Source: Darksidea phi
Taxonomy: Eukaryota; Ascomycota; Dothideomycetes; Pleosporales; Lentitheciaceae
NCBI GenBank assembly: GCA_030770425.1
Contig: JASJFT010000119.1
Location: forward strand, 1-64,000
Direction of reading: 5' to 3'
Length of the DNA stretch: 64,000 nt
The translations under genes and the position numbers were made by a program. How positions within the stretch are numbered: the first letter of the stretch is position 1; each line of letters begins with the position of its first letter. The notes beneath the pieces were generated by a model that saw only the letters and a program-made list of their open reading frames with translations, ran no database searches and was not told where the DNA came from. Below, one piece after another: positions 21,822-60,669 of this stretch.

Positions 21822-23804
21822 CTAAGCAACGCCGGCTGGTGAAGGCGGGTTCGATACTGGTCGACCAGCCCGCTTTTCCGGTAGCACACCAGCTCTGGAG
21901 GCGGTCTTCTTCGCGTCCGCAGATACCTTCGATATATCTGAGACGATGGTGTTCTGAGAAATCGCTCGGCCGTTTTTGCCGTAGTTTCCAGTGATGGTAT
22001 TGTTCGCCGTATTGACTCCGTTTGCCGCATACCAGGCACCATTCGAGAGGAATATATTGTTTTGTATGAGATACGAGTTCGAGCCTTCGTCCGTGTACAT
22101 TCCGAAGCCGACGTTGGAGTCAAAGGCATAGTTGTTGGTGATGTACGTAGAAGGGCTCTTGGAAAGTGTGTATATCGCGCCCAAATCCGTGTGGGAGTAT
22201 CCATAGCGATGTATCAAGTTCCCATCAATGCGGTTGTTCTGCATGACGGTGGGTGTTGTGTACTGCGGCTGATATTTGTAGAGACCCCGCTTTACGTATT
22301 CGGAGCTACCACCAGCGTCGTTGGAGCCCCAGCCGTAGCCAAGGCAGATGCCGGAGTAAGGCGCAATGTATATGTCGTTGTGCGAAATGGTCGAATATTG
22401 AACATAGGTCGCCAGAATGGGAACTGTAGAGCTGAAAAGTGAGGACACATTGTAGAAGATGTTTCCGGATATCTCGATGTTCGAGTTCACCATGCGAGAA
22501 TCGCTAGGGTGGTGGGCGTCGGCTCGGATGCCTCCAGCTGTAATACTGTTGCCCATTACCTGCGAAAAATACCCATCTTTAACAGCAACGTGGTTTGCTC
22601 CTAGTCCAACTCCTGTGACATGCGCATTTGCGTCATTTCCAATACCCACTCCGCCCCCGCCGAGCTGCGTATAATTCCCTCCTGAAAGAACAATATTTTT
22701 GGCTGCGCTAATCTGGACGGCGGATGGCATTTGACACCAGTTAGGACGAGTTGATTCGAAATTGGATGTGTCATAAGTCTTGTTTTCGCATATGTTGCCG
22801 CCCGTCTGTTGGTCGATATATCCAATGTCATTTGGTTGCAGCCAGGTGGTATGTGCCTAAAACAACAGTCAGATGAATCTTTTGCGTTGAATTTTAGGAA
22901 AACTTACGAAGCTTATGCCGTCAAACATGATGTCATGCACTGGATTGGCATAGGTTCCACCAAATACTACAAGCGTCTCCGAGACACCCAAGTATGCTTC
23001 AACACTGTCGATCTTCTCCCCAGACAGAGGCTTGTAGTAAACCTTACCGGCTTGAGAATCCAGGTAAAATTGGCCACCTTCTGTCAGCAATGCCAGAACA
23101 TTCTGCACCCAAACACCAAAGTCCGCGTTGTTTTTTGAAACAGTGTCATATCCCCAGATCTGATTAAACCACGTGTTCTGTTTCATAACAAGCTCCCGGT
23201 TCCCGGCAGATTTGATGGGTGCATACCGATCGGCGAAAGAATTAATGAAGCGGATTTCTCCATTCGCAATCCCGGACGTGGAAGTGATCCAATCGTATGA
23301 GGATGAGGTCCATTTGATACCGGTACTCGTGTATGTAAAATCCTTACGATTTGCAACCTTCCTGCGCGCGTAGTTGGATGCTTGTCCGTTCACGTAGAGA
23401 TTCCGTGATTTAAGGCCGGTTGGGACGCTGGCAGAGTAAACGCCGTTTGAGCCTGCCGTCCACCCTGTGATCTTGCGGCCGCCAGATATCACGGCATCGG
23501 ATCCCATCCATTTCACAGTGAAACCGTTTTTGCCAGAGTCGTCCGCTGTAAACTTGAGTGGCGCTGAGAGAGTGTACATTCCGGAACCGACATGAACGGT
23601 GATGTTCTCATTCATAACGCTCGCGATCTGGGCGCGAACAGCTTGCTGTGCTCTAGACAGTGTCTGGAAAGCTGCTGCTGCTGATGTACCGGTATTGTTG
23701 TCCGAGCCATTCGGGGCAACGTAGAAGTCAACTGCGGCAACAAGATTGCTGCAGAGGGCCGCGCAAACAAAGATTAACTTGGACTTCATACTTGCTGTCT
23801 TCAC
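21822..23804 (-). CDS. Secreted right-handed parallel beta-helix protein (polysaccharide-lyase-like)
   Basis: Two exons, 23804-22908 and 22856-21822, give 643 residues. The 51-nt intron has GTAAGT and TTTTAG, phase 0, and joins GISF to AHTTW. A signal peptide (MKSKLIFVCAALCSNLVAA) is followed by VDFYVAPNGSDNNTGTSAAA, the typical opening of pectate-lyase-like/inverting GH beta-helix proteins (Beta_helix, DUF1565-like). Repeated coils appear from residue 330 on: NSNIEISGNIFYNV, YSTISHNDIY, NNRIDGNLIHRYG, TYITNNYAF and LIQNNIFLSNGAWY. The likely role is extracellular polysaccharide binding or cleavage; the substrate cannot be read from sequence. Confidence 0.85.
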
Positions 23805-24389
23805 AGATGCAGGTGATGTTGAAAGTTGCTGCGACTGTGGCCTTTCATGTGCACGCTTTTGTGATGCGGGTCAAGTGGTAATAGGCAGAATTGCGACACG
23901 CACAATCTAGAGCTAGTGCCCCTTGAGATGAAACATGATTTAAAAATGCGGAGAGATCTAGAGCGCAGATTTCTTGCAGAGGCGTTATTGCTACAAATCG
24001 CGTTAGCCGTATCGTCGGTAATATCAACCGGGAAATCGACGTCCCTATTTTCCCGTACCTGGTTCATTTCCCCACATATCGCCAATCATGCACCGCATGA
24101 TACAGGGTTGTTCGTAGATCTACCCACGATAATTGTTAATTAGCTCAGGGTGGTAAATTTTCCGATTTTGAATTTAATTTGAGCCTATTGGTGGTCGGCC
24201 CTTTTCGCAAGAAAACCCAAGTTACACAAGCAATGCCAATGGTGGAGTATTTCAGTGCGTCCTTGTAGCGTTAATTGCCCATTTCCAGAGCCATGAATGG
24301 GGAGTAATATAAGTAACTAGATGTTCCGTCTTAGAACTTCGAACGCTCTCTCAAGATCAGCGAGACAACACGTACCAAACCGGACCAGA
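23805..24389. promoter_or_regulatory. Divergent intergenic region
   Basis: 585 bp lie between the start codons of the beta-helix gene (minus) and the feruloyl esterase gene (plus). Both encode putative secreted wall-active proteins, so shared regulation is possible. A TATATAA-like element (AATATAAG) is near 24306-24313. No confident regulator site was found. Confidence 0.45.
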
Positions 24390-28831: not shown

Positions 28832-30957
28832 TCACGCCCACAGCAACTTCGCAAATGTAGGCGCAAGATCTGCTCTGGCAACTACCAGGACCATCACAGG
28901 CTTTCTCTTAAGAGGCTTAAGATCCCAACCCAAACATACACTCTCGCTATATGTATGCTTGTGTAACATCCTCCAGGACGGTCCATTACCCATCCGCGCA
29001 CAGCACTCTCTAGATCCATTCACCCAAACCTCTACATACCGGTCCAAGCGCAGGTCGTCCTTTATGAACGACACAGACAGATCGATAGTAACTGTTTCCG
29101 CATCAGACTGAATCTCCATAGAAGCTGTGAAGTCTAGTGTGCACTTTGTAGATTTCTCGACAGGGTTGAAGGTTGGTGGGATGGTGTCCGATTCTAATGG
29201 TGGCGTCAAGGGAGCAGTGATCCGCCGCCGAGTACCTTGTTCGTAGGAGTATGCAAACCGCAACAACTTCTCGTCTTCATATGCCTTGCCCGCAAAAGTG
29301 AGGTTGACAGGCATTTTCCGTGTCTGCATAACGCCCATCGGCACGCTCACAGTCGGCACGCCTAGATGTCGAATCGCGCGGTTCCCGTTTGAGTACTTTA
29401 CGCCGTTCTGCAGCGAATGTCTCGCGCTTTCCAAATTGAACTCCAAATCCGCGAATCCGACATCTCCATTCGCGGGGAAGACGATACAATCGAGCTTTTG
29501 CTCGTCCATCCAGTCTTCCAGGTCTCGTTTACGCTGCGCTTCGAGGCTTCTCAGCGCCTGGGCTAGTCCCGGGTGCTCTAGCAGTGGCATGTCTTTGAGT
29601 TGCGCGGCGATATCTGGAAGCCCTGGGTAGTCGATCCAGTTCCGGACTTCGAGAAAAGTGTCGGGGATGTAGTCTGCCGGTTTCGGGAAGAGAAGGCTTG
29701 CGTTCACGTCTGAGAGTTTGCGGAGGTTTGGGTCGTTGTTTTGGATGAGGAATGTGTCCCAGGCCTTTGCGATGAGCGAACTGCGCTCTACGCGATTCCA
29801 GTCAGAGGGTGCTCCGACAACGTTGTTGGTTTCTTTCGAAACGGAGTCATCCTCGTAATTTGTAATGAGCGGGAAGTCGGTATACACAATTTCTGCACCT
29901 AGTGCTTCGAGATCGGCACTGGCGCTTCTCCACAAGTCGATTACATCTTGACTGACGACGGTGGGCTTTGCGTGGGGATTCGAATCTTGCTGTCCAACAT
30001 ACAGTTTCGGAATACCAACGCGTCTACCTCTGAGGGCGTCGGCCTTACCGAAAGCGTGGTAGTCTATCTTTGGTGGTTCGGGAAGCTTGACATGCTTTTG
30101 TTCCCGCCAGAAGTCTCCTGTGGTCTCCGGGTCCGGCTCCGCTATTACGGCCATGATTTCAAGCAGATCCTCCATCGACCGTGCATAGGGAACCGGAGTA
30201 TCGCACGTAACGTACAATGGCCAAAGTCCGCGGCATGATAAGATACCTCTTGAAGGCGTGTAACACACCAACGCGTTATTCGACGCCGGGGATCGTCCGG
30301 AAGATACGGTCTCCGAGCCCATCCCAAATACGGCCATACTACATGCTGTTGACGTCGCTGCTCCGTTCGAGGATCCAGAAGAAAACGCTGCAGTGAGATA
30401 TTTGGAGTTGTACGGACTTTCGGCTCGGCCGTAGAGTCCCCGTTGCATGCCGCCGGCAGCCATGGGTGGCATGTTCGTCTTACCTATCAGTACGGCTCCG
30501 GCAGCACGTAGCTTAGATGCAATAGCGGAGTCTTCTCGAGATTGCAAGCCGTCTAAAGCGGGCGATCCATTGGTAACAGTGAGGCCTCCGTAACTGTAGC
30601 TGTCTTTGAGGGTGTAGGGGATGCCTTCTAGAGGCCCGACCGGCAGTCCAGAAGCTCTTCGGGCATCTGAAGCGGCAGCCTCTTCGAGTACCTTTGGGTT
30701 GAAAATAGTAAATGCATTGAGCGGCTGGACGGTTTCACCGTTTTGTAGCTTCACTCCGCCCTCAATGTCATACCTGGCTATCCGTATAAGGTAGCTGATG
30801 ACTAGTTCAACACTTGTGACTTGGCCCGAGGATAGAGCCTTTCGGTGCTCTGAAATTGATGATTCGACTATGTTGAACGAACCCTCTTTAGGGTTGGGAT
30901 GTGACTGCACGAGGTCAGTGTTAAGCGCCGGACGGGCAATTCAATACAGCTTACCAT
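28832..30957 (-). CDS. Amidase signature family amidohydrolase
   Basis: Two exons: a start-codon exon whose coding part is only the ATG (30957-30955), a 50-nt intron 30954-30905 (GTAAGC, CTTAACAC branch, GTGCAG), and 30904-28832. The protein has 691 residues beginning MSHPNPKEGS. Without the intron the frame lacks any ATG near the conserved start. Amidase signature residues: GIPYTLKDSY (catalytic Lys), FSSGSSNGAA (cis-Ser) and GSETVSSGRSPASN (nucleophile Ser, with G-to-S and I-to-G changes around it). The core ends near residue 570, and about 110 residues of C-terminal extension follow, as in some fungal amidases. It would hydrolyse an amide; the substrate is unknown. No signal peptide. Confidence 0.88.
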
Positions 30958-42890: not shown

Positions 42891-43279
42891 AGGATCCCGA
42901 TCCAGAATGTCAACCAATCCCCAAGGTTTCTCCTATCATTTAACAGCTGCCACCAATTTCATGGGGGGGTTCATTGGATAAGTCTACTAGTTCCGCTAGC
43001 TGTGATCTCCACCCTTTATATTCCGGGGTTGTCAACGCGCGCGCTCTGTTGCAAATACCCAGACGGCACAATGCCACCCTTCCCTCACAGCGGGCGAGCT
43101 CCCACGTGAGCGCATGGCCAAAAGAGAAGAGGAGATTAGGCGTATCGATGGCTTCGACTTAACCTTAGCCCCTATACTCGCCAAGACTTCCCTTATTACC
43201 ACATAATAAGTCTCTTATACAAAACGGCCGGCCGCACACAAACCGGACGCAAAGAATTAAACGCAAAAAAATGCCAAAA
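42891..43279. other. Spacer
   Basis: May include the degraded membrane-anchor part of the P450 relic. No supported feature. Confidence 0.35.
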
Positions 43280-43398
43280 ACATACAACAGCGGGTATTCG
43301 CTAGTGGTCACCCACCTAACTACTAATCCGCCGGTACGCTGCTTAGATATGGCTGAGCGAACGGGAAGCCTCGGTCTCAGCGTCCTATGGTCGTATGT
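43280..43398 (-). rRNA. 5S ribosomal RNA gene
   Basis: On minus the 119-nt segment begins ACATACGACCATAGG and ends CGCTGTTGTATGT; the ends pair as helix I. The internal control region reads GGATTAGTAGTTAGGTGGGT then GACCAC, which is strongly conserved in fungal 5S. Helix II forms between GGACGCTG and CAGCGTACC with the usual bulged A. Loop region GGCTTCCCGTTCGCTCAGCC is standard. A T5 run follows directly, then a T7 run, as Pol III terminators. Solitary dispersed 5S genes are normal in Pezizomycotina. Confidence 0.92.
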
Positions 43399-47406: not shown

Positions 47407-48420
47407 CGGTGTGAGAAGGGCCGGTGGCAGACCAACACAGAAAAAATGGATAATCTAGAGGTTGCTGGGACAATTTAAATACTAATTTAGCCAGATGCCA
47501 ACGCTCATTTCCACTTGCATTGCAGCCTATTTCCCCTCATTGTGGCTGATTGCAGTCACAGCAAAAACCTTTGCATGGGAAAGCGAATCGCATCTTCGGC
47601 GTTTTTCTCCCATCATAATTGGTGCACTCTACGCAGTTTGAATCTGCCTCGATAACTGCCCACATAGGCATTGGCTCCGGTACCCCAATCATGGCCGACC
47701 GACCCGCCGATCCAATACGTCACCACGCCTGTCTACGCTGCAGGCGCTGCACTCCCTGCCAGCGCCGCCACCCCGCGAAAGTCATTGATGAACCGCGCCT
47801 CGTTGCCTACCGTACGCGCGCCGCGTCTACTCCCACCCACAGCTCCCGGTCGAGCGACAAGTCGTAGTCCGAGCGCACATCTACGTGCCCCCTCAGCCCA
47901 CGCCGTGCACGAAGCCAAGGTAGCACAGAATCAGGGCATTGGGCTTCAGAGAAGTTTTGCTACCGACATGATGCCAGTCTTGAGAGTAGAACTCGACCAA
48001 TTTAGGAGCAATCAGTTTTTGAAGCGTCCAGCCTCTTGTGAACATTTCGTGCTGCTTGGTATAATATTACTTAATCGGCCGACAAGCAACGCTGAACGAT
48101 CTTCTAGGCCGGCCCAGCCTCTTGTCTATCCTCTTTCGTAACAACCTTACCACCTTCTCGCCTTCTTCTCCACATGGCACTCTATTTTTTGGCTTCCTAT
48201 GCTCTCGCCGAAATATTTAATCGTACCAAGATCCGCAAACTGGCGAGGCCGTTCCGGAATCAGCTCAGCCACGACGAACGCCAAAAGCGGCGAGACAATA
48301 GAGCGAAGAGTTATGCCTAATGGAGATATCTGAGGGACTGTGCTAAGCCCAAAGGGAGAGTCCCTAGACAGATATTACTGCGAGAGAAATTTGTCACGGC
48401 TGTCTGTACAACAGAACGCT
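47407..48420. other. Region with unassigned open frames
   Basis: 47671-48141 on plus is open (Ala/Pro/Arg-rich, starting MAPVPQSWPTDPP from a non-AUG or local start). 48174-48320 encodes a short peptide MALYFLASYALAEIFNRTKI..., with a hydrophobic start and basic end, stopped by TAA. The frame after that stop stays open for 45 codons. No splice-supported gene or known family was found. This may be a decayed gene. Confidence 0.3.
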
Positions 48421-48885
48421 TCGGGACTCCGTTTGATGAGGAGATTCCCTAAAAGCAACGGTTAACACGGTGATACTGGGGAAATGGGGAAATGCATTTA
48501 TAATAAATTCTATAAGGGGAAGCTATTATACCTAGTTATTCTAGTAGAAATTTATAAATACCCGGAGGTATACTTTAATACTATTATTTACTTATTCGGT
48601 CTAGCTATTAGTTTCGGGGTAGAATAATAAGGAGTATTTTAGTATAATCCTAAGCCTTATAGATAATTAATCCTAAAACTATAATACGAACTAGGTTTCT
48701 TAGTTAGATAGAATATTATTAAGATAACTATAAAGAGAATAAACTTGAGATATAAAGACGTCGATTAACTTAGATATATTAATTTTTTTAATAAGAATAA
48801 TATAGTATATCTTTATAAGTCTATAGACTATAATAAGAATATATTTATATATATAATCGTACTATTCCGACAGTTCTAAAGCCTG
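48421..48885. repeat. AT-rich RIP-like block
   Basis: About 460 bp dominated by TA dinucleotides, with TATAAG/CTATAG-type words and no open frame. It abuts the point where the nucleoporin-like gene stops matching, so an old transposon probably inserted or recombined here and was mutated by RIP. Confidence 0.6.
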
Positions 48886-49614
48886 TTTTATTTTGGCCGA
48901 ATAGACTACCACTAGAGCTGCCATTGCCGTAGAATAGTACCAATGTGTTAGTCAACGTAGCCCCAAAGCCACCGAATGTGGTGCTGGACGTGGAACTACC
49001 GCCGAAGAGGTTGCCGCCGGTCGCGCCGAACGGTTTTGAGCCGAAGCTGGTTGTAGTGTTACTACCTAAGCCGTCTAAATAGAGGAGTCAGTCACGATGC
49101 CGAGCAGACGCGATGGTTTATGAGACAGCAAGAAGAAAGGAAAATTCCAGACAGGCGCCGGAACACGCCAGAAGGCCATCGTCGGAGGGGCGCGACGATT
49201 CGAGCAGTTGCGCAGCATGCGAGCGGGGCGATGAAAATGCCAAAATGATGACGCGAATGCGACGCGCAGGACTTGGACATACCTCCGCCTCTAAATACAG
49301 AGCTCGTGCTCGTGTTGTTGTTGCTGAACAGACCGCCGCCCGAGTTGGTCGACTGGCCGAAGATGCTGCCGGTGTTCTGGTTGGAGCCAAAGCCTGGAGA
49401 CGCGGAGGGTGAGTTAAAAGCGTTCCGACGAGGGCGTCGCAGCGCTCGTCGATTGGGGCGCATTGTTGACGGCGGCGTGCAGAAGAGTCGCTAGACAGCC
49501 TAGATAAGAGAGCGTGCGCTCACCTAAATTGTTATTATTTGCCCCAAATCCGTTAAACGTGGACTGGTTGTTGTTCGAGCCGAAGCCCCCCAAACCGCCT
49601 GACCCAAACGACAT
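48886..49614 (-). pseudogene. Truncated FG-nucleoporin (Nup98/Nup116-like N-terminus)
   Basis: The minus-strand ATG at 49614 starts MSFGSGGLGGFGSNNNQSTF, the usual opening of Nup98/Nup116/Nup145N. After an intron from about 49526 (GTGAGC donor) to an ACCCTCCGCGTCTCCAG acceptor, the second exon gives GFGSNQNTGSIFGQSTNSGG and LFSNNNTSTSSVF. A second intron of about 200 nt leads to GGLGSNTTTSFGSKPFGATG, GNLFGGSSTSSTTFGGFG and SGSLFGQNKTGF. Only the FG/GLFG-repeat start is present. The GLEBS, remaining FG repeats and autoproteolytic domain are missing because the sequence runs into RIP-like DNA. The full-length essential gene must lie elsewhere. Confidence 0.7.
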
Positions 49615-49882
49615 GATGGGCGTGAGGATGTAGAAATGGCGGCACGCAAAGGGCGTCTATTTACTGCCCCACCAGCGCGCCAAACGTTGCCGTTTGGCCA
49701 TAGCGATGACAAAACATGACACCTATTGGCGAATGGGGGCGTGCTGAACCACGCGCTAAACCAGATGTGTGCGACGCGGGGTGCTACTGCTTGGCGGCTG
49801 AAGTCTGAGCCACAAGAGGGCTTTTTCTTTTTACAACGTATATGAGACTTTAACCCCCAAAAACATCCATCAAAAAAGTTAA

Positions 49883-50035
49883 GTCTTGTTGGTGTAGTCG
49901 GTTATCACGTCGGTCTCATAGCAATTCTATGACTGCTCTTAGAGCAGATATCCGAAGGTAAGTTTTAAAAGCAACCCCCGTCATAATAAAATACTGATAT
50001 TGGTTAGGCCGCGAGTTCGAATCTCGCACAGGACA
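49883..50035 (+). tRNA. Elongator tRNA-Met (CAU) with two introns
   Basis: Exon parts 49883-49920, 49950-49957 and 50008-50035 join to a 74-nt tRNA. Acceptor GTCTTGT (49883) pairs with ACAGGAC (50028-50034), followed by discriminator A. The D arm is GTGTAGTCGGTTATCAC. The anticodon stem-loop is TCGGT-CTCATAA-TCCGA, with the T-T mismatch typical of elongator Met. The variable loop is AGGCC and the T arm GCGAG-TTCGAAT-CTCGC. Intron 1 (49921-49949, 29 nt) sits at the canonical 37/38 position. TCATAG of the anticodon side pairs with CTATGA in the intron, and CTGCTC-TTA-GAGCAG forms a perfect hairpin. Intron 2 (49958-50007, 50 nt) interrupts the variable loop and has GTAAGT and TTAG ends. A and B boxes (TGGTGTAGTCGG, GTTCGAATC) are intact. 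Confidence 0.88.
49958..50007 (+). other. GT-AG intron-like insertion in tRNA variable loop
   Basis: 50 nt inserted after AAG of the variable loop. 5' end GTAAGT, ACTGAT at 49993-49998 (10-15 nt from the 3' end, like a fungal branch site), 3' end GGTTAG. Its length, donor, branch and acceptor match the spliceosomal introns of the protein genes in this window (47-60 nt). Exact excision restores a normal five-base variable loop. Confidence 0.75.
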
Positions 50036-50037
50036 AA

Positions 50038-50046
50038 TTTTTTTTT
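50038..50046 (+). terminator. Pol III terminator of tRNA-Met
   Basis: A run of nine T begins three bases after the tRNA discriminator base, a strong Pol III stop. Confidence 0.85.
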
Positions 50047-50936: not shown

Positions 50937-52334
50937 TTACTCCTGAGTAGCTCTGGCAAGCTCTCTTCTTTCCTCCACATCTGTCGATTTATATAGAACT
51001 GCCAGTGTGATACAGAAAAGTAGGAGCCTTTCTTGTAGAATCGTACTGGAACATCCATCCCACCAAGCATCTTTCCGGCGGAGTGGTTGCGTTTCGTTGA
51101 AGAACTTTTTTTTTTGTTGCACAGCTATCTTATTCTGGTAGCATTGTCGTATGAGAGGATTCGGGGAATGTTTGAGTTGATAGTAGTTCTTTCTCAAGCT
51201 CCTGTAATACTCTTGCACCAAAGCATCCGAAGAATGGTATATATCCCCATGTGAGCCGTCACGCACAGCCTCTCCTTGCGCACTTTGGTGGATCGGTAAG
51301 GCGACGTTAAGGTGCTGTCCAGCTTGAGGCGACAGTGCTCCTGGCGGAAGGTAAGTTGCAAGAGCGTTTTTAGTAAGCGTTTGAAGCATGAGACAGCACC
51401 AAAACTCGAGCAGGTTTAGGAGAAGTGGGTCGACATCGTCTTTGATTACAGAAAGAAAGACAAAGTGTTCCTCGATCTCCAGTCCGTTGGCAGGAAAGTA
51501 GTCCCAGACGTGATAATGAAGACTGCGATGCCTTGCTCGATAAATCGGATCCCGGTGCGCCCGAATGCGTTCTTGAAGCTGTATACTCTGGCCAACGTAT
51601 AGGTAAAAGTGATCCGGATCAAGCTTCTGCCAGATGATATGAAGGTAGATGCCACCATCTTCGGGACCGACGTCTTGTGGAAATTGAAGAAGTCTGTTAT
51701 GTATTAGTAATTGCTGCGAATAATGTTTGAAGAGACTTACTGCAGGCGAGAGTAATCTCGAGATTTCAGGATATCCCAAGCTTTGGGAAGTATCATCTTC
51801 TCTAGTTGCGAGACCCGATCATCCGATGCGAGAAATGCTCCGTACCGTTCTGGGTGGAGAACGCCGACCTGCTGGATCATGTACTGGAGAACATCGACCG
51901 GGTTCGATAGTTGATGATCTCGTGTGGTTTTCTCAATGAGCGCGTCTCGCTCCAGCCATGATTCAAGGCTGCATTTCTTTCGCAATTGGGCCTTCGGTAG
52001 TGCTCTGAGGCGCGTCGTCTGGTAGCATAGCGGCATGAGGCACCGGACGCGTCTCTGAATTAACAGCATCAGAACGCGCTCTGCCCCTGGGAGTGCGTTT
52101 AGCACTAGTCACTTTGTCGGTTGAATGGGTATTGGGGCGTAGTTCATTCGTAGTATCTGAAGCGTCATGAAACCGAGCCATAGTCGCTCTAGGAAGGCTG
52201 CCATCACTTTCACTGTCGTCGGTATCGTTCTGATAACATCCAATCTGTCGGTTGGCATTACAGAATCCGATAGGGGATCTCGGGTCCGACGATATTCGCA
52301 CCCAACCGAAGCGTTGCCGTGTATCCGTGGACAT
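50937..52334 (-). CDS. GIY-YIG-like domain protein
   Basis: Three exons, 52334-52113, 52054-51741 and 51693-50937, give 430 residues. Intron 1 (58 nt, GTGACT...TTCAG) and intron 2 (47 nt, GTAAGT...AACAG) both join in phase; without intron 1 the frame shifts and stops. Around residue 190 the protein reads PEDGGIYLHIIW, then FYLYVGQSIQLQERIRAHRD and HYHVWDYFP. This matches the GIY-(x)n-Y(V/I)G core, the following Arg and the His-rich strand of fungal GIY-YIG-like proteins. A possible catalytic Glu is in EIEEHFVFLSVI. The N-terminal 75 residues are disordered and charged. The role could be a nuclease or only a nuclease-like fold. The C-terminus ends ELARATQE unless an extra exon (50798-50400) is used. 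Confidence 0.7.
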
Positions 52335-52840
52335 AACTTGTACAATACGGGCGTGGGCGACTAATCCAGGTGCGGGTTGGTTGTCTGCGAGAGAGAAAGA
52401 GGTGATGAGTCTACCAGAGTTGGGTGCTACGAGCTATACATACAAGTCTGAGCTAGAGGCACCAGGTCATGTGATGCGAGTCATAGCTCTCCGCAGTCGC
52501 TTTCCATCTGCGTAAGAAGCCGACCCGCAGTCAAAGCGTAGTGTACAGAGCAGTACAAATAGGGAATCTACATAATAGCCAACCGGGCGATGACTTACTT
52601 GATCAAGCCTGGTCCATAAGTGGACTGTGCTGGGGACTCTCTCTGTTTATATAGCTAGATACTCAGCTTGTGTAGAAATCAGAGCCATCAACTTCCCAAA
52701 GTGCGCAGCACGTGACAAAATTCCTCCGCTTCGTTCTCCTCCCATGTTACTGCTTCCCCATTCATGCAACCATCAATGTGGCACACATCCACCACCCTGT
52801 ATGTTGACCACCTGCTTCGATCATTATCTCCTTCTAACAT
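52335..52840. other. Intergenic region
   Basis: Promoter side of the GIY-YIG gene and 3' side of the HET fragment. No supported gene. Confidence 0.4.
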
Positions 52841-59614: not shown

Positions 59615-60669
59615 ATGCATTTCTTGCTGCTGAATATTCTACTGCTTTTTAGGCAAGGCGTTACCGCCCACTGTACGTCATATTCACACCTGTGCGCTGC
59701 CAGTCCTCACCATCCCAGACTTGCTCTCCAAATTATCCCACAACGGGGGCCCGGTAAGCAAAAACTGGCAATATGTTAGGTATAGGCTTCCTCTTCCCTC
59801 TTGTGGATGTAATCCAGGGCCAACAGCCGTTATGGTAGGCAGGTTACACCAGGCTTCGGCGGTCCCCGCGTACAACCAGCAACCATGAATCCAATTTATG
59901 AACTCTACGACGACAATATCCGTTGTGGAAGAGGGGCCACGATGACGGGACATGATGTTGAAACGCTGGCTGTCAGCGCTGGAGATGAGATTGGGTTTGT
60001 TCCCACTCAGACGGGTGATGGCAAAGACGTAAGTGCCAAAAAAAAAACCACCCCATTCATCTTTCTCCTGATATAGGTTAGACCGACGTCTACTTTTACC
60101 ATCCTGGATTCGCGCAAGCTTACCTATCGCGAGCACCGGCGGACTTAGAATCGTACACTGGGGATGGCGATTGGTTCAAGGTTGCGTACATAGGTGCGAA
60201 AAACGATAACGAATGGGCGATCCTAGGTCATACCATGGTTGGTTGAACATTCCCATGTTAATCCCACCTAACCGTGCTGACATTTCCGAGGCGAATTTTA
60301 CGCTTCCTAAGACGACACCGCCTGGAAAATACCTCCTTCGTCTCGAGGTAATCTTCGGAATCACGCATGAATTCAACGTCACTCAATTTTACATCAACTG
60401 CGCACACATCGAAGTCAATGGCCCTGGTGGCGGTAAGACGCCTTGTGCTGTCGACTTGGCCGGGCTAATCTTCGCTCAGGAAAGCCTGGCCCAATGGTCA
60501 AATTCCCGGGTGCGTACGACATCTGGGATCACGGTACGTTTGACGACTGTAAAGCAGTCTTGACGCTAATTTTGTTCATGTTGTAGCCATTTGGGAGCCC
60601 GCTCACGTAACCGGATTGCGAAACCTCACTGGTTTTGTGGCCCCAGGACCCCCGGTTTGGGAAGGGTAG
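59615..60669 (+). CDS. AA9-type lytic polysaccharide monooxygenase
   Basis: Seven exons join in phase: 59615-59672, 59719-59779, 59827-60028, 60082-60237, 60291-60432, 60480-60533, 60587-60669; 251 residues. Introns are 46-53 nt. The intron after exon 4 has an unusual GTTGGT donor but a good branch (CCTAAC/GCTGAC). The signal peptide MHFLLLNILLLFRQGVTA is cut to leave His19 as mature residue 1, the first copper ligand. The second ligand is H114 in DVYFYHPGFAQAYLS. The axial pair Q191/Y193 is in TQFYINCAHIEV. Other AA9 marks are NWQYV, AGDEIGF, TPPGKYLLRLE, GPMVKFPGAYD and the ending PGPPVWEG. No CBM1 is attached. It would oxidatively cleave cellulose or another beta-glucan. Confidence 0.82.

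Follow-up and report, generated by a model that had tools for sequence, protein, structure and literature searches.

A probable spliceosomal intron in the variable loop of an elongator tRNA-Met gene of Darksidea phi

An elongator tRNA-Met (CAU) gene of the ascomycete Darksidea phi carries two introns, and we consider it highly probable that the second one is a spliceosomal intron, residing in a gene transcribed by RNA polymerase III (Pol III) and removed before the tRNA splicing endonuclease acts on the first. The gene lies in a stretch of 64,000 nucleotides (contig JASJFT010000119.1, positions 1 to 64,000), hereafter called the window. Directly established are the anatomy of the gene, the splice signals, the homologous inserts in its paralogs, the compensatory changes in its stems and the fact that no other intact elongator Met gene was found. 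What would be new is an otherwise ordinary intron in an RNA class, tRNA, in which we know of none.

The Rfam tRNA family (RF00005) matches exactly positions 49883-50035 of the forward strand, to which all features of the gene given below also belong, scoring 39.5 bits where the gathering score is 29. At the gathering thresholds it is the sole family matching there, and its alignment treats the second insert as an insertion within the variable loop. ARAGORN, run on the window with the bacterial code, listed no tRNA. Following the cloverleaf assignment, the 5' exon (49883-49920, 38 nt) extends to A37 and includes the A box TGGTGTAGTCGG (49890-49901) and the anticodon CAT (49917-49919), which directly precedes A37. 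The canonical anticodon-loop intron, at 37/38, occupies 49921-49949 (29 nt) and has a C32-G(-3) A-I pair. Then come a middle exon of 8 nt, ATCCGAAG (49950-49957), the spliceosomal-type intron of 50 nt (49958-50007; assigned from sequence, signals and paralog comparison), which splits the variable loop as AG|GCC, and a 3' exon of 28 nt (50008-50035) comprising GCC, the T arm, the 3' strand of the acceptor stem and the discriminator A. The B box core GTTCGAATC is found at 50015-50023, and a run of nine T (50038-50046) forms the Pol III terminator. We take the A box consensus to be TRGYNNARNNGG and have likewise assumed that of the B box. In our own tRNA numbering the insert site is 45/46.

An earlier note on this DNA had read the locus as a tRNA-Met gene with inserts of 29 and 50 nt, the removal of which restores a 74-nt elongator tRNA, and both the sequence and the Rfam match bear this out. 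The 74-nt form fits the cloverleaf and has the variable loop AGGCC; the acceptor (7 of 7) and T (5 of 5) stems are fully paired, while the D stem (3 of 4) and the anticodon stem (4 of 5) each contain one U.U, the latter presumably also present in yeast elongator tRNA-Met. The features of a nuclear elongator tRNA-Met, i.e. cloverleaf, CAU anticodon and A37 and, judged by the consensus sequences assumed above, A box, B box and T-run terminator, are all there, and the promoter boxes and the T9 run are intact, as the note had claimed. The phase of excision of the second insert is ambiguous, with AGG at both ends and four sequence-equivalent phases, one of which gives GT...AG.

In that phase the insert begins with GTAAGT (49958-49963), contains the branch-site-like ACTGAT (49993-49998; branch A at 49997, with 10 nt between it and the 3' end of the insert) and ends with TTAG (50004-50007), which are the signals pointed out earlier. 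The strict set, i.e. GTAAGT, CTRAY at an intron-like distance and YAG, occurs in one of the 127,900 50-nt segments of the window (both strands), namely the insert itself, and a looser set occurs in two. In sequence simulated from the nucleotide transitions of the window (Markov-1), the strict set was found once and the loose set 15 times among 3,837,000 such segments; on these counts a chance origin of the insert was rejected. A resemblance to the protein-gene introns of the window, also proposed earlier, is supported by 15 ab initio candidates (several of which may be false), 13 of them 47-73 nt long. Examples are the candidates at 22857-22907 (51 nt, GTAAGT..CTGAC..TAG), which links two long frames, and at 60029-60081 (53 nt, ..CTGATATAGGTTAG).

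The two long frames joined by the clear 51-nt candidate lie at 21825-23870 on the reverse strand and look by eye like right-handed beta-helix sequence. Elsewhere the window holds a 5S rRNA gene (43279-43398, reverse strand, 78.6 bits) and, about 270 nt upstream of the tRNA gene on the opposite strand, the start of a Gly/Phe/Asn-rich frame (about 49500-49615) which by eye resembles an FG-repeat nucleoporin. An amidase frame at 28835-30940 has its best named matches in Pleomassaria siparia (67%) and Rhizodiscina lignyota (66%), both of which we take to be Dothideomycetes, and matches metagenome proteins of unnamed source at up to 80%, among the 120 of 7998 matches listed.

The genome (51.35 Mb in 477 contigs, the window being contig C23) was searched by BLAST with the whole gene and with a 661-nt region around it. 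Each search returned the same three relatives, located on contigs C24 (302972-303126), C146 (minus strand, from 101346 down) and C1 (minus strand, from about 608554 down), so that at this BLAST sensitivity there is no further copy of the insert; an introner-like repeat was rejected on the same grounds. The flanks of the C24 and C146 copies match those of the window gene (82-84% over the matched stretch), and at the same position each has a homologous insert (58 and 52 nt, respectively). In the C1 copy, where flank similarity stops at about 10 nt, the anticodon-loop intron is kept, the second insert is absent and the site reads AAGGCC. The four copies therefore present one empty and three occupied insert sites, and each occupied site, once its insert is taken out, reads AGGYC like the empty one.

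The three inserts share sequence properties of U2-type introns. All have GT..AG ends (GTAAGT or GTAAGC at the 5' side; TAG, CAG and AAG at the 3' side), a branch motif at the usual distance (CTGAT, CTGAT and TTGAC) and a length like that of introns of the host (50, 52 and 58 nt). The core signal columns (GTAAG, the branch TRA and AG) are identical in all three, i.e. 10 of 10 columns against 23 of the 40 other ungapped ones, a modest difference (P = 0.009) in a test chosen post hoc. Among the insert-bearing copies the insert has diverged more (0.20-0.26) than the flanks (0.13-0.18), and the first exon (0.06-0.11) and first intron (0.04-0.11) have diverged less. The divergence of the 3' exon (0.17-0.25) equals or exceeds that of the flanks and consists in part of paired T-stem changes.

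All three relatives are damaged. The C24 copy has a T loop of 3 nt and the anticodon CAC, the C146 copy has lost the 5' strand of the anticodon stem and has a T loop of 5 nt, and the C1 copy has a 5-nt T loop and G at position 37; with T loops of 3-5 nt, all three are devoid of the B-box core. Rfam at E <= 5 gave no match for any of them, although this is a weak test, as two intron-bearing tRNA-Val genes were also missed at the gathering score. The C24 copy thus combines a Met-type body with an anticodon as for valine. The shortened T loops (TTAAT twice, TTT once) sit on T stems that are still fully paired, and the losses lie at or beside the centre of a TTCGAA palindrome; hairpin-centred deletion or template switching could be their cause. 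Near the C146 relative, about 490 nt (positions 160-645 of the extracted locus L085) match window positions 48386-48495, 52247-52503 and 52598-52720 at 92-94%. These matches flank the window tRNA gene on both sides, are more similar than the tRNA segments (82-84%) and possibly represent a dispersed repeat.

Covariation was examined in the four spliced sequences with a structure of 19 pairs, from which the two U.U positions were left out. All 73 scorable stem cells are paired, and five of the 19 pairs are doubly changed. Among 500 shuffles, two equal or exceed the observed percentage paired and covariation score, and five the observed count of doubly changed pairs; the number of pair types is not above that of the shuffles (317 of 500 reach the observed value). 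When the partners were slid by 1-3 columns, 19-60% of the cells were paired and no pair was doubly changed. Between the window gene and the C24 copy, both of which bear the insert, two of the 14 long-range pairs are doubly changed (acceptor 5-69 and anticodon 29-43, in alignment columns) and none is broken, for which P is 0.0004-0.0009 under independent neutral change at 10-18% divergence. The T-stem pairs were omitted from this neutral test, as local template switching could also produce them. At columns 29-43 the window gene has C-G and, with the C1 copy as outgroup, this change appears to have occurred in the lineage of the window gene once the insert had been gained. Double changes between insert-bearing copies imply that selection acted on the tRNA fold in genes that already had the insert, and the stem changes are most simply read as those of a functional tRNA from which the insert is excised.

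No second intact elongator Met gene came to light in pattern and BLAST searches of the 51.35 Mb. A pattern for the 5' half, allowing up to three mismatches, matched six places (two when read backwards), i.e. the window gene, the C1 and C24 copies and, by eye, two tRNA-Val(AAC) genes and one unrelated sequence. Met tRNA patterns with or without the canonical intron matched 2, 33 and 17 places (controls 20, 25 and 22) and revealed no other elongator Met gene. The 33 places belong to the intronless pattern, which recovers the initiator Met gene on contig C334 and several other tRNAs, and one of the 17 is shared with the search that gave two. Twenty stretches, namely all 17, one of the set of two and two of the 33, contained no tRNA according to ARAGORN or Rfam (E <= 1). 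The 18 of them for which letters were available include one full T stem and two full anticodon stems, never both together. The other 31 intronless-pattern matches were assessed visually on their sequence, aided by known tRNAs. A B-box pattern matched 27 places (control 12), of which only the window gene is free of mismatches; 16 of the 27 were scanned with Rfam and two proved to hold a tRNA, in both cases Ser. A bare 9-base anticodon pattern was uninformative (174 places, control 325).

A general tRNA search scored 63 of 1735 candidates and does not have the window gene among its 50 matches, so it is not a census. Contigs C304 and C417 hold tRNA clusters that look mitochondrial, and 33 of the 50 matches lie outside them. 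The two tRNA-Val(AAC) genes recognised by eye, on contigs C68 (L053) and C455 (L054), have anticodon-loop introns and were missed by Rfam at the gathering score, which means that tRNAs with introns are under-reported here. In the viral and prokaryote collections a 30-base pattern had no exact match. The window gene is the one intact elongator Met copy found, and another may lie in an assembly gap or have a very different sequence.

According to the earlier note, several intact elongator Met genes elsewhere, with this copy silent, would make it a pseudogene; these searches yielded none, and the three relatives are damaged. We regard it as unlikely that the window gene is one member of a set of tRNA-Met copies, put out of action by the insert, with the functional gene at another site or in an assembly gap. 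Such a silent copy would agree with the damage in two of the three insert-bearing copies, and with the visible decay of all three relatives and their failure in the weak Rfam test. The divergence of the 3' exon, no lower than that of the flanks, weighs against the spliceosomal reading. An insert-free paralog does exist on C1, albeit with a 5-nt T loop, G at 37 and no B-box core, and an assembly in 477 contigs may lack another Met gene. Eukaryotic tRNA arm insertions are moreover described in a 2014 review as occurring mostly in one of many synonymous copies, which are presumed to be pseudogenes (PMC4090602). On the other hand, the window copy has no visible lesion in its exons, A box, B box or terminator, no intact alternative was found in the genome, and the compensatory pair changes arose between copies that bear the insert. 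A good deal less probable still is that the tRNA splicing endonuclease excises the insert as a non-canonical intron of the kind seen in archaea, nucleomorphs and Cyanidioschyzon. Introns are known at 45/46 in archaea and in a nucleomorph tRNA-eMet (PMC4090602), and one relaxed helix match was found in the window copy in one phase. The strict bulge-helix-bulge, a check proposed earlier for the insert junctions, is absent in all four phases of all three copies, and the relaxed match is absent from the C24 and C146 copies. The canonical intron fails the strict test as well, so the absence of the motif is weakly informative and does not exclude endonuclease splicing, but cleavage by the endonuclease leaves GTAAG, the branch site, AG and their conservation unexplained.

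We give very little credence to retention of the insert as a very long variable arm, in a tRNA that is functional or serves some other purpose. The insert can lie outside the stems when the cloverleaf is enforced, but the three inserts differ in length and in predicted fold and are more diverged than the flanks, and to our knowledge there is no elongator tRNA-Met with a 55-nt variable arm. Folding energy decides nothing here, as free folds win whether or not the insert is included: for the precursor the free fold is better than the enforced cloverleaf (-40.7 vs -36.1 kcal/mol), as is that of the form lacking the insert (-34.8 vs -30.3 kcal/mol), and the 74-nt form likewise favours a free fold. 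The least credible origin is a degenerate group I or group II intron. Group I introns follow a U at the end of the 5' exon and group II introns have the ends GUGYG...AY, whereas in the four phases the last base of the 5' exon is A, A, G or G, never U, and the insert runs GTAAG...AG. In favour of such an origin, small putative group I introns, of 56-81 nt, are described in fungal rRNA genes (PMC3160393).

Based on these comparisons, we favour the spliceosomal reading, which the earlier note had advanced and to which the conserved splice signals of the homologous inserts and the compensatory changes in insert-bearing copies now add support. Pol III would transcribe the gene, and in the nucleus the spliceosome would excise the 50-nt U2-type intron at AAG|G, the classical proto-splice site. 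The excision would restore the AGGCC variable loop and the cloverleaf, and, since the endonuclease and ligase recognise the mature tRNA body, its restoration should allow them to take out the 29-nt anticodon-loop intron next, with end processing probably last. Two different splicing machineries would thus probably be required to make this essential tRNA, as the earlier note had proposed. The cell would depend on the window gene for its elongator tRNA-Met. It seems rather likely, although less so than the spliceosomal nature of the insert, that the sole elongator tRNA-Met becomes readable only after both the spliceosome and the tRNA endonuclease have acted, which would make cytosolic decoding of internal Met codons spliceosome-dependent.

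The closest parallels are the introns of fungal U6 snRNA and U3 snoRNA, which are also mRNA-type introns with ordinary signals in genes of small structured RNAs; the host here differs in being a tRNA that also bears an endonuclease-type intron. According to a paper of 2017, no small structured RNAs other than U3 and U6 are known to contain an intron frequently (PMC5832005). The one U6 gene found in the genome, considered as a second intron host, is intronless. Spliceosomal introns outside Pol II transcripts are likewise known from ascomycete and lichen rDNA, and yeast removed lichen rDNA introns of this kind from Pol I transcripts (PMC8527467), but there the host is an rRNA and no second machinery for a tRNA intron is involved. 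The tRNA introns of Crenarchaeota, Cyanidioschyzon and nucleomorphs lie outside 37/38, sometimes beside a canonical intron, and the archaeal 45/46 site corresponds, in our numbering, to that of the window insert (PMC4090602). The eukaryotic cases of non-canonical tRNA introns named in that review of 2014 are nucleomorphs and a red alga. Archaeal and Cyanidioschyzon introns have structures of the bulge-helix-bulge type, in contrast to the window insert with its spliceosomal signals and no strict motif. Canonical fungal 37/38 introns are matched by the first, 29-nt intron of the window gene, whereas the second insert is longer, lies in the variable loop and has GT..AG ends. In the open-licence literature we recognised no report of a tRNA with a spliceosomal intron, in line with the earlier note, which knew of none in a fungal tRNA.

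As ARAGORN with the bacterial code listed nothing on the window, routine annotation may overlook tRNA genes of this kind or label them pseudogenes. If the spliceosomal reading is true, the spliceosome can act on an uncapped Pol III transcript of about 150 nt, and an order is suggested between two unrelated splicing machineries that act on one molecule. AAGG sequences in variable loops would then be possible sites of intron gain, and translation in this fungus would be tied to the activity of the spliceosome.
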